DNA of 10,603 bases from Methanobacteriota archaeon (GTDB taxonomy: Archaea > Thermoplasmatota > Poseidoniia > Poseidoniales > Poseidoniaceae), in the NCBI GenBank assembly GCA_002725275.1, contig PBOE01000025.1, positions 2,278-12,880 of the forward strand, in the 5' to 3' direction. The position numbers and the translations under genes are program-made. Under the pieces are notes generated by a model. It did not search any database. It worked only from the letters and a program-made list of their open reading frames with translations, and was not told where the DNA came from. Shown here piece by piece: positions 5,141 to 10,131 of the stretch (position 1 is its first letter; every line of letters begins with the position of its first letter).

Positions 5141-6373
5141 GTGAGCAGACGCCGCACCAACATGCAGGCCACCGTATACCCTGCGCCGCTCGCGGGTGAA
5201 CACCACGATTGGCTTGACCGTCTCCACAGCGAGCTTGGTCTTCATGCCTGGTCGCCTGTTATGGCCCCCATCGCAGAAAAGCTCGGGAAGAACATACCGC
5301 TGAGCGTCGAAGACGGGTTGGTCCTGTATCATCACCCCGACCTCCATGAAGTGGGTGCCTTGGCCAACATCGTGAGAAAGGCGAGGTTTGGCCTCAAGAC
5401 GTTTTTCAATTCCAACGTGCACATCAACCAAACCAACATCTGCGTCCTGGCCTGCCGCTTCTGTGCGTTTCGTCGGGGGCCCAAGGCACACGACGCATAC
5501 GCCATGTCCGTGGATGAATACGTCGCTGACTTGAGTCGATACGCCCACGCAGTGGACGAAGTTCACTCCGTGGGTGGACTGCATCCAGACTGGGGCATCG
5601 AGCACTACGAGGCACTGTTTGCTCGAGTCACCAACGAACACCCGCACGTGTCCATCAAAGCCCTGACGGCCGTTGAGATCAAACACCTCTCGCAGCGTTC
5701 ATCCATTCCGACCAAAGAAGTGCTTCGTCGCCTCAAAAACGCCGGCCTGACCTCGCTTCCAGGTGGTGGTGCAGAAATCCTTGATGACGATGTTCGCGCC
5801 GTTATCTGCAACGGCAAGGAAAGTTCTGCTGAATACCTCCAGATTCACCGTGAGGCTCACGAAGTTGGGCTGCCATCGAACTGTACGATGTTGTTTGGAA
5901 CGATTGAATCTCTTGAACAACGCCTTCAGCACATGGTCTTGCTGCGCGAACTCAATGAACAAACCCGCGGCTTTCAGTGCTTTGTCCCGTATCCGTTCCT
6001 TCCTGATTCCACCCGCCTTCCAGAGGCTCAGCTGGCCAGTGGCACCGAGGTCCTCCGGACCGTGGCTGTTTCAAGGCTGATGCTCAACAACATTCCACAC
6101 ATCAAAGCCTATCGAATGAACATCGGTGACCATCTTGCGGAATTGGCCCTGCAGTACGGAGCCGATGACATCGATGGGACCGTCCAAAAAGAATCCATCA
6201 TGCACCTTGCCGGTTCAACAGCACCGCTGGACCACGACCGATCAAAACTGGCTCGTCTCATCACCGACGCAGGGTGCGAGCCCGTTCAGAGAAACACGGT
6301 GTACAGCAACTTTGAACCTTACACGCCTCCTGAGGTCAAGCCAAAACGTCGCCTTCAGATGGCGTCCGAATGA
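5141..6373 (+). CDS. mqnE: aminofutalosine synthase (radical SAM), menaquinone biosynthesis
   Basis: A 410-residue cytoplasmic radical-SAM enzyme. MqnE adds the SAM-derived adenosyl radical to 3-[(1-carboxyvinyl)oxy]benzoate to give 6-amino-6-deoxyfutalosine, the second step of the futalosine route to menaquinone. The 4Fe-4S motif is CX3CX2C (Cys101, Cys105, Cys108), within the segment HINQTNICVLACRFCAF. Other MqnE-type motifs are EVHSVGGLHPD, IKALTAVEI, LPGGGAEI, CTMLFG, RGFQCFVPYPF, HIKAYRMNIG and DDIDGTVQKE. These favour MqnE over its relatives MqnC (cyclase) and CofH, although all three are close. The GTG start lies 24 nt after the ATPase stop, within TTGAGGTGAGC. ATG at 5162 (residue 8) is the alternative, and neither has a well-placed ribosome binding site. 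mqnA follows 9 nt downstream. The N-terminal 40 residues are a little longer than usual. Confidence 0.9.
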   Translation: MSRRRTNMQATVYPAPLAGEHHDWLDRLHSELGLHAWSPVMAPIAEKLGKNIPLSVEDGLVLYHHPDLHEVGALANIVRKARFGLKTFFNSNVHINQTNICVLACRFCAFRRGPKAHDAYAMSVDEYVADLSRYAHAVDEVHSVGGLHPDWGIEHYEALFARVTNEHPHVSIKALTAVEIKHLSQRSSIPTKEVLRRLKNAGLTSLPGGGAEILDDDVRAVICNGKESSAEYLQIHREAHEVGLPSNCTMLFGTIESLEQRLQHMVLLRELNEQTRGFQCFVPYPFLPDSTRLPEAQLASGTEVLRTVAVSRLMLNNIPHIKAYRMNIGDHLAELALQYGADDIDGTVQKESIMHLAGSTAPLDHDRSKLARLITDAGCEPVQRNTVYSNFEPYTPPEVKPKRRLQMASE

Positions 6374-6382: not shown

Positions 6383-7195
6383 ATGGAGAGGACGTGGACC
6401 TCGACCTTGGGCAGGGTGGCCTTCATCAATTGCGACCCGCTCTATCACGACATCTCATCCGACTGGAACATTTTGGCAGCGCCTCCATCATGGTTGACCG
6501 GCCACGTGCTACGACGCGACTGCATCCTCGCACCCATTCCTGCGGCCGATTACGCCAAGCATGAATCAGATTTGGTGCTCCTGCCTGACATTGGCATTGG
6601 TAGTCAAGGTGAGGTTGGCAGCGTGTTGTTGTTCGGTGCCGTACCGATTGAATCGATGAAGACGATTGCTCTGCCCAGCGATTCTGCGACGTCCGTCGCT
6701 TTGCTGAAGCATCTCTTGGCGAAGAGGGGCCACGACATGAACTACGTCTCCACGGGCCCCGACTACGACTCCATGATGGCCATGGCAGACGGTGCCCTGC
6801 TCATCGGTGATCGTGCCCTCGATGCGGCAAGGGAATTCCCCGAGATGGTACAGATGGATTTGGGCACGGCTTGGATGGAGGAAGAGGGGCTCCCCATGAT
6901 TTTCGGTGTGTTTGTCGCCCGGCGAGACACGCCCACGGCGTTGGTTCAACGAGCGCATGCAGCCCTGCTGGCGAACCTGGTGCAGTTTGAAACCGACCAA
7001 ACAAAACGGGAGCGCGTCATTGAATGGTCCATGGAAAAGTCAGGCCTCACCCATGAGCGACTCGACCAGTATTACGGAGAAGTGTTCAACCGATTGAACG
7101 CCCACCATCTCAACGGACTCTTTCGCTTTCTTGAACAGGCATGTGGAATGGAGAACGAACCTCAATTTGCGTGGCTGGCAGATGCCGTTGTATAA
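6383..7195 (+). CDS. mqnA: chorismate dehydratase, menaquinone biosynthesis
   Basis: A 270-residue soluble protein of the MqnA family (periplasmic-binding-protein-like fold). It dehydrates chorismate to 3-[(1-carboxyvinyl)oxy]benzoate, the committed step of the futalosine pathway and the substrate for the neighbouring MqnE. Matching segments are an N-terminal strand GRVAFINCDPLY (10-21), PPSWL (34-38), an IPAADYA block (52-58), LLPDIGIGSQGEVGSVLLFG (66-85), the TIALPSDSATSVALL block (94-108), ALLIGDRAL (138-146) and DLGTAWMEEEGLPMIFGVF (159-177). Length is normal for the family. The start is set by a strong GAGGAAGGA site overlapping the mqnE stop. No signal peptide is visible, which fits a cytoplasmic enzyme despite the binding-protein fold. 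mqnD follows after 45 nt. Confidence 0.9.
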   Translation: MERTWTSTLGRVAFINCDPLYHDISSDWNILAAPPSWLTGHVLRRDCILAPIPAADYAKHESDLVLLPDIGIGSQGEVGSVLLFGAVPIESMKTIALPSDSATSVALLKHLLAKRGHDMNYVSTGPDYDSMMAMADGALLIGDRALDAAREFPEMVQMDLGTAWMEEEGLPMIFGVFVARRDTPTALVQRAHAALLANLVQFETDQTKRERVIEWSMEKSGLTHERLDQYYGEVFNRLNAHHLNGLFRFLEQACGMENEPQFAWLADAVV

Positions 7196-7240: not shown

Positions 7241-8119
7241 ATGACTGAACTTCCGGTGGATGAAGACGGAAATAAAATCGTAAGAATCGGTCATAGCCCG
7301 GACCCCGATGATGCGTTCATGTTCCACGCCATGACCACCAACGCCTTCCCAACGCCCGGGTACAATTTTGTTCACGAACTCCAGGACATCGAAACACTCA
7401 ACCATCGAGCCATGAATCAAGACCTCGAAGTTTCGGCGGTCTCCATTCATGCCTACCCCGACATCGCCGAGCATTACGCTTTGATGAATTGCGGTGCGTC
7501 CATGGGCGAAGGCTACGGTCCCATGATCGTTTGCAAAGCCGGTGTCTCGGAAGCCGACGCACGAAGCAACACCATCGCCGTTCCCGGATTGAAAACCAGC
7601 GCTTACCTCGGCTTGCGCCTCGCTTGGGGCGATTGTGATGTGGCTGTGGTCCCGTTTGACGAAATCATACCTCGCATTCTCGACGGCACGTACCTCAGTG
7701 GTCTGATCATCCACGAAGGTCAATTGACCTACGTTGACCATGACCTCGACGTGCTCATCGACCTCGGGAAGTGGTGGAACGCACGGACAAACAACTGGCC
7801 CATGCCCTTGGGCGGAAACGTTGTGCGTCGTGATTTGGGAGAAGACGTCATGCAAGACATCACCAAGTACACCAAGATGAGCATCGAATACGCGCTCGCC
7901 TCTCCCGACGAGGCCCTTGAGTTTGCCAAGGCATGGGGCCGAGGTATTGACGACGAAACCAACCGAGAATTTGTCGGCATGTACGTGAACGACCGGACCA
8001 TCGACTACAAAGAAGAAGGCCGTGCTTCCATTCGACAGTTCATCAAAGAAGGCCAAGCCATCGGCATGATTCGGGACGATTTTGACACGACAACGATGCG
8101 GTTCATTGGAGAACCATGA
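7241..8119 (+). CDS. mqnD: 1,4-dihydroxy-6-naphthoate synthase, menaquinone biosynthesis
   Basis: A 292-residue cytoplasmic enzyme with the two-lobed MqnA/MqnD fold. It converts cyclic dehypoxanthinyl futalosine to 1,4-dihydroxy-6-naphthoate, the naphthoquinone core of menaquinone. Diagnostic stretches are HSPDPDDAFMF (18-28), VSAVSIHAYP (64-73), GEGYGPMIV (89-97), AVPGLKTSAYLGLRL (113-127), VPFDEI (137-142), GLIIHEGQLTY (154-164) with His158 at the place of the proposed catalytic histidine in the Thermus enzyme, and PMPLGGNVVRRDLG (187-200). AGGTGG at 7228-7233, 7 nt upstream, supports the ATG chosen. The first 12 residues are a short acidic extension before the first strand. The next gene starts 9 nt after the stop. 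With mqnE and mqnA it forms a three-gene futalosine block; the hydrolase and MqnC steps are missing from this stretch. Confidence 0.93.
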   Translation: MTELPVDEDGNKIVRIGHSPDPDDAFMFHAMTTNAFPTPGYNFVHELQDIETLNHRAMNQDLEVSAVSIHAYPDIAEHYALMNCGASMGEGYGPMIVCKAGVSEADARSNTIAVPGLKTSAYLGLRLAWGDCDVAVVPFDEIIPRILDGTYLSGLIIHEGQLTYVDHDLDVLIDLGKWWNARTNNWPMPLGGNVVRRDLGEDVMQDITKYTKMSIEYALASPDEALEFAKAWGRGIDDETNREFVGMYVNDRTIDYKEEGRASIRQFIKEGQAIGMIRDDFDTTTMRFIGEP

Positions 8120-8128: not shown

Positions 8129-8617
8129 ATGGAAGCCGAAGGCCGCATACCAAAGGTGAGCCAATACGGCTCGGTCGACCCGGCCCCCCCTGCACAAGAG
8201 GCGTTGGTCGCCGACCTCACCGCTCGCTTGTGCGATGAAGACGAACCCATGTTTCAACGGATGCGGGCCGTGTTCGCTCTGCGCAACCTTCGCACCGATG
8301 AAGCGTGCTTGGCGCTCTGCGAAGGGTTCGCCAGTTCGAGCGCACTCCTTCGCCACGAGATCGCCTACGTTTTGGGACAGATGCAAAACACGGTAGCGCT
8401 GCCAACACTGATTCAACGCCTTGAGGACGATGAAGAGCACGTCATGGTCCGTCACGAAGCCGCTGAAGCCATGGGCGCCATCGGCGACCGGTCCGTGATT
8501 CCATCGCTGGAAAAATTCAGCAAAGATTCTCAACCTGAAGTGGCTGAATCTTGCATTGTCGCATTGGATTTACTGGCTTGGGTCGCCGGAGCCGAATTCC
8601 ATGACACCGAGTGTTGA
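8129..8617 (+). CDS. half-length deoxyhypusine hydroxylase-like HEAT-repeat protein
   Basis: A 162-residue all-helical HEAT-repeat protein. Generic HEAT proteins are common, but this one carries the specific marks of deoxyhypusine hydroxylase (DOHH), the di-iron enzyme that finishes hypusine on eukaryotic eIF5A: YGSVDPAPP (13-21), a RAVFALRNL repeat, LLRHEIAYVLGQMQ with His76-Glu77, MVRHEAAEAMGAIGD with His109-Glu110, and VAESCIVALD near the end. The two HE pairs are 33 residues apart, the spacing I recall within each half of human DOHH (56/89 and 207/240). Eukaryotic DOHH is about 300 residues with four HE pairs; this has one half, most like the C-terminal half plus the interdomain linker. 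Upstream is intact mqnD, so no N-terminal half is hidden there. A homodimer could supply four HE pairs. Hydroxylase activity on archaeal aIF5A is an inference. An unrelated metal or scaffold role remains possible. Confidence 0.8.
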   Translation: MEAEGRIPKVSQYGSVDPAPPAQEALVADLTARLCDEDEPMFQRMRAVFALRNLRTDEACLALCEGFASSSALLRHEIAYVLGQMQNTVALPTLIQRLEDDEEHVMVRHEAAEAMGAIGDRSVIPSLEKFSKDSQPEVAESCIVALDLLAWVAGAEFHDTEC

Positions 8618-8657
8618 GTTACCTCAAGTTCAAAGACTGGACCACCTACCCCACGAC

Positions 8658-8665
8658 AGGAAGGA
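8658..8665 (+). promoter_or_regulatory. Shine-Dalgarno site of the small CxxC protein gene
   Basis: AGGAAGGA lies 5 nt before ATG 8671 and decides between that start and an upstream in-frame GTG at 8611 that overlaps the end of the preceding gene and has no such site. Confidence 0.65.
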
Positions 8666-8670
8666 CGCAC

Positions 8671-8880
8671 ATGCCTCACGACCATATCCAACTTGCCCAA
8701 GCTCCCAACGGTGAACTCGGGCCCCGATGCCACCACTGCGGCATGCGCCTCACGTTCGGCAACGCCATGGTCGTCGACAAGTACTACATGTGTTGGGAGC
8801 ACTACGTTGAAACCACCGGTGCAGACACGGCAACGGAAGTTTCAGACGCCGATGAGCGTTTCTGGATGAAGCAGGACTGA
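8671..8880 (+). CDS. small putative zinc-binding protein (CxxC...CxxH)
   Basis: A 69-residue protein I do not recognise. It has a CX2C-X17-CX2H pattern (Cys20, Cys23, Cys41, His44) within PRCHHCGMRLTFGN and MCWEHYVE, suggesting one zinc site of treble-clef or ribbon type. An acidic, Thr-rich tail (TTGADTATEVSDADE) ends in WMKQD. The N terminus also has two histidines (MPHDH). A longer reading from GTG 8611 would add 20 residues, but the strong ribosome binding site favours ATG 8671. It lies 53 nt after the DOHH-like gene and 51 nt before priS, in the same direction. A nucleic-acid-binding or protein-partner role is possible but unproven. It is too short and low in diagnostic motifs for a firm family call. 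Confidence 0.7.
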   Translation: MPHDHIQLAQAPNGELGPRCHHCGMRLTFGNAMVVDKYYMCWEHYVETTGADTATEVSDADERFWMKQD

Positions 8881-8931: not shown

Positions 8932-10131
8932 ATGGCAACCGGTTGGGCGAGGTTTGCACATCGGTTTGGCCAATACTATCAACACGCTACGCTTTGGTCG
9001 CCTCCACGCATCAAAACACGTGAATGGATGTTTATTCCGTTCGGGGGGGCACCTCCCCTCCGACACAAATCGTTCTCCGGGATCGGTCAAGTGCAATCTT
9101 TTCTTGCCCAGCGAGCCATGCATTCCTGCTTTTACTCAACGGCTTACTGGCGCCGCCCTTACGAATTGAAAATGGCTGATAAGTTGTGGCAGGGAGCAGA
9201 TTTGATCTTTGACCTTGATGGCGACCACCTGCCGGGTGTCACCGACCGAGATTTTCCCGGTATGTTGTCCGTGATTCAAGATCAGGCATGGGCTCTATGG
9301 AACGATTTCCTCGAGCCCGAGTTTGGATTCAATGAAGACCACCTTCAGGTCACCTTTTCCGGGCACCGCGGTTTCCATCTTCACTATCGGGACCCCTCCC
9401 TGTTTCATTTGGATTCCGAAGCCCGGCGCGAACTCGTTTCACACATCCGCGGCGAAGGCGTTGACGTACAGGGCGGTCTTGCAAGGTACCACGACCAACA
9501 CGCCAAAGGTTGGACTCAACGTATCCGCGAGGGCATGGACGCCATGATTCTCACCCTTCGTGATATTCATCGTGGCGTCGAAGGAAGCGCCGGAGAACTC
9601 CGTCGATTGGAAACCGAACTTCAGGCCATGCAAGACCGAGAGGGTGCGACCTCTCAACGTTCGGCAGCGGCCATTCGACGTCTTGCTGAATTGATGGACC
9701 ACGATTCCCGAGTCGCCCGTCTCAAAGAGGGAAAATTCGAACTCCTTGGAAATTACCAGGCGTTGTTTTTGAATTTGCTCAAAGCTGATGCATCGGTGGT
9801 GTTGGGTTCGGCAGGCGAGACGGACGAAGTGGTCACCATAGACACGCGACGCCAGATTCGTTGGCCGACCTCCCTCCACGGCAAATCCGGGATGCGCGTC
9901 AGCGAATTTCCTCTCGCTCGGTTGGATCCTGACGGTTCGAATCCTTACAATCCATTGAACGAAGCCTTTGTGCTCGGGCTTGATGACTCGATCGAGGTCG
10001 AATGGCTGGTTGATGATGCCGTTGCCCAGTTCGGTGACCGTCGGTTGGAAAGCGCCACCGGCAAGCGAATTCAAGTGCACGAGTCCGGCGCGACCTTCTT
10101 GGTCTTGAAGGGCTGGGCGACGATGGTGTGA
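8932..10131 (+). CDS. priS: DNA primase small (catalytic) subunit
   Basis: A 399-residue archaeal/eukaryotic-type primase catalytic subunit that makes RNA/DNA primers for replication, normally with PriL. Motifs in order: REWMFIPFG near the N terminus; YSTAYWRRPYE; the metal-binding triad region ADLIFDLDGD with Asp94 and Asp96; SGHRGFHLHY (143-152), the nucleotide-binding SxRGxH motif; GWTQR; and IDTRRQIRWPTSLHGKSG with the third catalytic Asp304. Between the Asp motif and SGHRGFH, where enzymes such as Pyrococcus PriS have a Cys/His zinc knuckle, this protein has no cysteine. Its only Cys is in the HSC segment ahead of the active site. A long charged helical stretch (about residues 200-270, with RRLETELQAMQ) looks like a coiled-coil insertion. 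The ATG start is supported by GAGGG 6 nt upstream. No priL is in the window, so partner and regulation are unknown. Confidence 0.9.
   Translation: MATGWARFAHRFGQYYQHATLWSPPRIKTREWMFIPFGGAPPLRHKSFSGIGQVQSFLAQRAMHSCFYSTAYWRRPYELKMADKLWQGADLIFDLDGDHLPGVTDRDFPGMLSVIQDQAWALWNDFLEPEFGFNEDHLQVTFSGHRGFHLHYRDPSLFHLDSEARRELVSHIRGEGVDVQGGLARYHDQHAKGWTQRIREGMDAMILTLRDIHRGVEGSAGELRRLETELQAMQDREGATSQRSAAAIRRLAELMDHDSRVARLKEGKFELLGNYQALFLNLLKADASVVLGSAGETDEVVTIDTRRQIRWPTSLHGKSGMRVSEFPLARLDPDGSNPYNPLNEAFVLGLDDSIEVEWLVDDAVAQFGDRRLESATGKRIQVHESGATFLVLKGWATMV

Follow-up and report, generated by a model that had tools for sequence, protein, structure and literature searches.

Do archaea possess a deoxyhypusine hydroxylase (DOHH), the iron enzyme that completes hypusine in eukaryotes? 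The question is raised by an open reading frame (ORF) of 162 residues within a stretch of 10,603 nucleotides from a Poseidoniaceae archaeon (contig PBOE01000025.1; the whole stretch is called the window). That archaea have deoxyhypusine synthase (DHS) but no recognised DOHH, as an earlier note on this DNA had stated, is stated in passages of PMC3306375 (2012), PMC5178350 (2016), PMC6105217 (2018) and PMC8153317 (2021); the same passages mention that hypusine has nonetheless been reported in some archaea. No report of an archaeal DOHH was found in the literature titles and abstracts searched, a coverage that left preprints and most subscription papers outside. Judged from its sequence, the window gene is a strong candidate for this archaeal step without a known gene. 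Its product is probably an archaeal DOHH that acts as a homodimer, the two chains taking the part of the two eukaryotic arms; we assign this reading a probability of roughly 0.75. The gene and its diagnostic segments are as follows.

8129..8617, + strand: half-size DOHH-like gene, 162 residues, ATG to TGA; predicted all-helical HEAT fold with eight helices
8165..8191, + strand: YGSVDPAPP segment, equivalent to the linker between the halves of eukaryotic DOHH; its D17 and P18 are invariant (103 of 103 aligned sequences)
8354..8359, + strand: H76-E77, counterpart of human H56-E57 and H207-E208 (human numbering as used in part of PMC9117371)
8453..8458, + strand: H109-E110, counterpart of human H89-E90 and H240-E241 (same numbering and source)

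The window protein as a single DOHH-like unit

The ORF contains everything that the earlier note had quoted, namely LLRHEIAYVLGQMQ, MVRHEAAEAMGAIGD, VAESCIVALD, YGSVDPAPP, and the two His-Glu (HE) pairs H76-E77 and H109-E110, which are exactly 33 residues apart. Human DOHH is the top match of the protein both by sequence and by fold. Its best domain match scores 127.4 bits; the next protein reaches 41.4 bits with its best stretch. The single-chain predicted structure corresponds to one DOHH arm and is aligned by Foldseek to human DOHH with 48% identity, and 21 of the 23 positions common to both eukaryotic arms are retained. Pfam yielded HEAT families only, and NCBIfam only weak matches to NblB, CpcE and CpeY; the scores of 30.1 bits for NblB (cut-off 300) and 24 bits for CpcE (cut-off 330) do not qualify the protein for either family. 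The eight generic HEAT stretches that served as an outgroup (see below) lack HE at the aligned pair columns. Profile and fold comparisons thus put DOHH first, as the earlier note had proposed, and the sequence is nearer to DOHH than to other HEAT families. On this sequence basis, the protein is homologous to DOHH and is not a phycobilin lyase or a generic HEAT protein. A canonical DOHH carries four HE pairs in two arms on one polypeptide of about 300 residues; by its sequence, the window protein, with one unit and two pairs, is a single-unit variant outside this class.

Compared to five relatives, dN of the gene is 0.09–0.29; dS amounts to 2.6 and 4.4 in two of the comparisons and is not computable, owing to saturation, in the other three. 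Because dN is low and dS is high or saturated, the ORF is real and under strong purifying selection. Nor is it a piece of some longer gene: the stop codon of the upstream MqnA-type gene falls 9 bases before the ATG, and the same length recurs in relatives.

The distribution of the unit was determined in 389 genomes of the same phylum. At E≤1e-3, 129 genomes gave a match; 104 of these matches were strong (E≤5e-20), a few being fragments or broken genes, and the best match below the strong set (4e-8) was a generic HEAT match. In an alignment of 103 sequences of at least 140 residues each, every sequence retains both HE pairs. In divergent genomes of the phylum and in many metagenome proteins, which contain the same unit, the spacing of the pairs is often 32. 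Among the 120 matches listed of 2551 proteins, 110 have a length of 137–193 residues and 10 are two-unit proteins of 241–284 residues. A single unit with two HE pairs is the rule in this phylum. The archaeal host of a single-unit gene suggested by the earlier note agrees with the near relatives, which are named Poseidonia metagenome-assembled genomes (MAGs) and in which one unit recurs; by these relatives, the window comes from an archaeon of the Poseidoniales (Marine Group II, MG-II) type. Since JGI labels 12 of the 110 single-unit proteins among these matches "deoxyhypusine monooxygenase", the homology is already present in automatic annotation; the names assigned by NCBI, if any, mostly read "HEAT repeat domain-containing protein". 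Two longer frames (L115 and L112; 320 and 666 residues) were discarded as two-unit genes, as each consists of one unit behind unrelated in-frame GC-rich sequence. Similarly discarded as a bacterial DOHH was L047 (JAOMAZ010000001.1), which is titled Deltaproteobacteria; the genome falls in the phylum of an MG-II genome and is probably a misnamed single cell. No viral relatives were found in one scan of viral contigs that used the window protein as query and was sensitive to close relatives only.

For the archaeal unit we infer the dimer, the iron, the use of O2 and the substrate as follows. The window gene would encode a deoxyhypusine hydroxylase made of one HEAT unit. Two copies would associate and bring together four HE pairs, two from each chain, which would hold two irons as in eukaryotic DOHH. 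According to a passage of PMC8153317, each arm of the eukaryotic enzyme contributes two HE pairs, and the binuclear iron is surrounded by the arms as a symmetrical dyad. A homodimer is suggested because the one-arm protein retains most of the arm-shared positions and no partner gene was found. DHS, perhaps by an agmatine route, would put a 4-aminobutyl side chain on the aIF5A lysine within PGKHGSAK, and the paired enzyme would activate O2 at the di-iron site and hydroxylate this side chain. The reading is supported by the homology, the predicted fold, the conservation of the ligand residues, the failure to find a second half, and the presence of synthase family and substrate in related genomes.

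Pathway partners and gene context

The earlier note had named the presence of DHS and aIF5A as a check. In 20 genomes related to the window organism, the DHS family (PF01916) was found in all 20 and aIF5A in 15, in 13 by the family model and in two as contig-edge fragments. A strong DHS paralogue (282–308 bits) occurs in 19 and a weaker one (115–147 bits) in 18 of the 20 genomes. The modification loop PGKHGSAK is present in 13 of 13 family-model matches, and PGKHG[AS]AK in the aIF5A of six out of seven divergent genomes; the sequence from the seventh (L171) is fragmentary and does not include the loop. An agmatinase-family protein (PF00491) was detected in 23 of 25 genomes, and its gene lies at most 1 kb from the weaker DHS paralogue in all 18 genomes having that paralogue. 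Given this arrangement and the lack of spermidine synthase (see below), an agmatine-type route, which part of PMC5178350 favours for Haloferax, appears to fit better than a spermidine route; the side chain resulting from the two routes would be the same. Of the 104 DOHH-positive genomes, 95 contain a haem-copper oxidase (PF00115), compared to 97 of the 285 DOHH-negative ones (uncorrected for kinship and MAG completeness); this is as expected for an O2-using enzyme.

Several observations weigh against an archaeal DOHH. Spermidine synthase (PF01564) is absent from 25 of 25 genomes, 11 of 14 control genomes being positive. One genome (G003) contains the weaker DHS paralogue only, and in five of 20 genomes aIF5A was not found by family model and contig-edge fragment search. 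Nine of the 104 positive genomes have no COX1 match, perhaps due to MAG gaps. As cited in part of PMC5178350, early amino-acid analyses of Euryarchaeota including thermoplasmales gave deoxyhypusine and little or no hypusine, and a bifunctional synthase in some archaea is raised as a possibility in passages of PMC6105217 and PMC8153317. Furthermore, the conserved neighbour of the gene is neither DHS nor aIF5A, and some relatives have lost the gene or carry it broken, 15 out of 16 of those searched retaining aIF5A. The neighbours in the window, between which the DOHH-like ORF is flanked by an MqnA/MqnD-family gene and by a small ORF followed by PriS, are listed here.

5141..6373, + strand: radical SAM protein; the nearest family is aminofutalosine synthase MqnE, with 416.2 bits (below the cut-off of 434.55)
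6383..7195, + strand: second PF02621 protein (MqnA/MqnD family; Pfam match)
7241..8119, + strand: MqnA/MqnD family protein (PF02621), menaquinone synthesis by the futalosine route; conserved upstream neighbour
8611..8880, + strand: small ORF from the ORF list, without Pfam or NCBIfam match, with a CHHC pair; the listed start is GTG 8611, the true start perhaps ATG 8671 (MPHDHI)
8932..10131, + strand: DNA primase small subunit PriS (Pfam and NCBIfam)

The small conserved protein at 8611–8880 (CHHCG ... YYMCWEH) stands beside PriS in both arrangements of the primase block.

This neighbourhood is the source of the rival that survives best, although we consider it unlikely: a DOHH-type di-iron hydroxylase with another substrate, tied to menaquinone biosynthesis. 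Its main reason is that MqnA lies directly upstream in 90 of 100 loci, including those where the flanking primase block stands on the other side. In addition, PF02621 occurs in 99 of 104 DOHH-positive and in 56 of 285 negative genomes. The linkage is nevertheless incomplete: ten loci have no adjacent MqnA (L057, L112–L117, L119, L121 and L122, L057 being the L122 gene; their neighbouring ORFs are mostly spurious, in GC-rich DNA), and five positive genomes have no PF02621 match. The retention of residues common to both eukaryotic halves also counts against this rival.

Further counter-evidence came from the 56 genomes that contain PF02621 without a strong DOHH match. Seventeen of them, chosen for their PF02621 match, were inspected together with one other genome. 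MqnA itself is found at 16 of the 18 loci (16 of the 17 inspected keep it), and the DOHH-like gene is absent or in remnants. At 14 of these 16 loci the retrieved stretch gave no tblastn match to the gene; remnants behind MqnA were detected at L178:2338-2641 and L182:2051-2165, the latter comprising the first residues only, in frame with the downstream ORF. In one of the 14 tblastn-negative loci, gene fragments are visible by eye in three frames (L172:1327-1634). The aIF5A of the gene-less relatives contains PGKHG[SA]AK in 13 of 15 cases by motif search, and none was seen in L203 and L204. These sequences suggest that the gene was lost on more than one occasion. Because relatives without it retain aIF5A, DOHH appears to be dispensable in these archaea; yeast lia1 mutants are viable according to a passage of PMC8153317.

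Origin and copy number of the unit

In order to place the unit, a tree of 123 columns was calculated, in which the separated halves of 18 two-unit DOHHs were combined with 47 single units. The two-unit proteins came from human, from some named animals and fungi and otherwise from metagenomes or transcriptomes, several of their N-halves being incomplete; the single units comprised the window protein, 25 loci, and 21 metagenome proteins mostly of unknown host. The N-halves form one clade (99/89), as do the C-halves (100/97), and no single unit falls within either. In the best tree, the neighbours of the N-halves are the units of the window protein's group, and those of the C-halves are the remaining single units. 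The window protein's group (19 units) has a mean identity of 45.6% to N-halves and 46.3% to C-halves; the corresponding values are 41.6% and 44.3% for the other 28 units, and N-halves and C-halves are 40.4% identical to each other. A tree rooted on generic HEAT proteins put the root among the N-halves with weak support and long branches, and this root was not used.

That a eukaryotic DOHH was transferred in shortened form, as its C-terminal half, is improbable; a shortened transfer was one of two histories considered in the earlier note. Human DOHH does match the window protein better with its C-half (127.4 bits) than with its N-half (98.9 bits), the SVDPAPP segment is common to the archaeal unit and the eukaryotic linker, the second group of units is somewhat closer to C-halves, and rooting with the outgroup places the C-halves among the single units. 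The match to the C-half and linker, which had been expected to tell the histories apart, exists but does not discriminate, since the N-half matches too. Because the archaeal units fall outside both eukaryotic half clades, the sequences do not support a late transfer of a C-half; the near-equal similarity of the window's group to both halves and the wide diversity of the archaeal units across the phylum likewise disfavour it.

The other history, a pre-duplication ancestor, fared unevenly. The single units were held together in 0% of 200 bootstrap trees, whereas a constraint uniting them costs only 1.62 log units and is not rejected by the approximately unbiased test (p 0.4). Because this cost is so small, the tree data are too few to decide on the ancestor; they lean against the simplest scenario, one duplication in the eukaryotic stem. 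Near-equal identity to both halves is expected of an unduplicated lineage, but a slow lineage could give the same result. It is therefore only tentatively proposed that the single-unit homodimeric DOHH of archaea is ancestral, that the eukaryotic enzyme is derived from it by fusion, after either a duplication or the joining of two such lineages, the beginning of the second copy (SVDPAPP) having turned into the linker, and that aerobic Thermoplasmatota would make true hypusine. Our confidence in this scenario was slightly lowered because the bootstraps do not group N- and C-halves, contrary to a simple duplication.

That the protein forms a heterodimer with a different unit encoded by another gene is very improbable. 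The two arms of eukaryotic DOHH are non-identical, and four of the 104 genomes (G173, G318, G322 and G378) gave two strong matches on different contigs; these may be duplicates, strain mixture or binning redundancy. However, a two-unit eukaryotic-type DOHH query (P0105) found the DOHH-like locus in 25 of 25 genomes, in three of them (G004, G018 and G019) as two pieces, and elsewhere only one weak generic match, in G021; with this query no separately encoded N-half or second half was seen in these 25 genomes. In a set of 20 genomes, all 20 have a single locus, which in G018 is split into two neighbouring pieces. Just as remote is a non-catalytic HEAT scaffold or phycobilin-lyase-like protein, which would agree with the HEAT-only Pfam result and the weak NblB, CpcE and CpeY matches but not with the NblB score far below cut-off, the lead of DOHH in sequence and fold, and the invariant HE pairs.

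Comparison with known systems

The DOHH-like gene makes the archaeal hypusine question directly testable in Poseidoniales, which are, according to the abstract of PMC6461757, the most abundant archaeal plankton in the surface waters of the ocean. The gene alone would not explain hypusine in Sulfolobus, where no search for it was made. The archaeal unit is a likely one-unit counterpart of di-iron DOHH; how that enzyme emerged from non-enzymatic HEAT proteins is a topic of PMC9040561.

PBS-lyase-type HEAT proteins (NblB, CpcE; PF03130) and designed alphaRep proteins have the HEAT fold in common with the window protein but give far lower scores. The aIF5A pathway of Haloferax volcanii, as described in part of PMC5178350, comprises DHS and an agmatinase-family protein, families that are also found in the Poseidoniales relatives; Haloferax aIF5A is exclusively deoxyhypusinylated and no DOHH is known there, whereas a DOHH-like gene is present here. 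The closest known system is eukaryotic DOHH (human, PDB 4d4z/4d50; EC 1.14.99.29), with which the archaeal unit has in common the HEAT unit, HE pairs 33 apart, the GQ following the first pair, VRHExxEAxG and the SVDPAPP segment. In contrast to the two units and four pairs per eukaryotic chain, the archaeal chain of 162 residues contains two HE pairs, and the SVDPAPP-like segment, which links the halves of eukaryotic DOHH, forms the start of the archaeal units.
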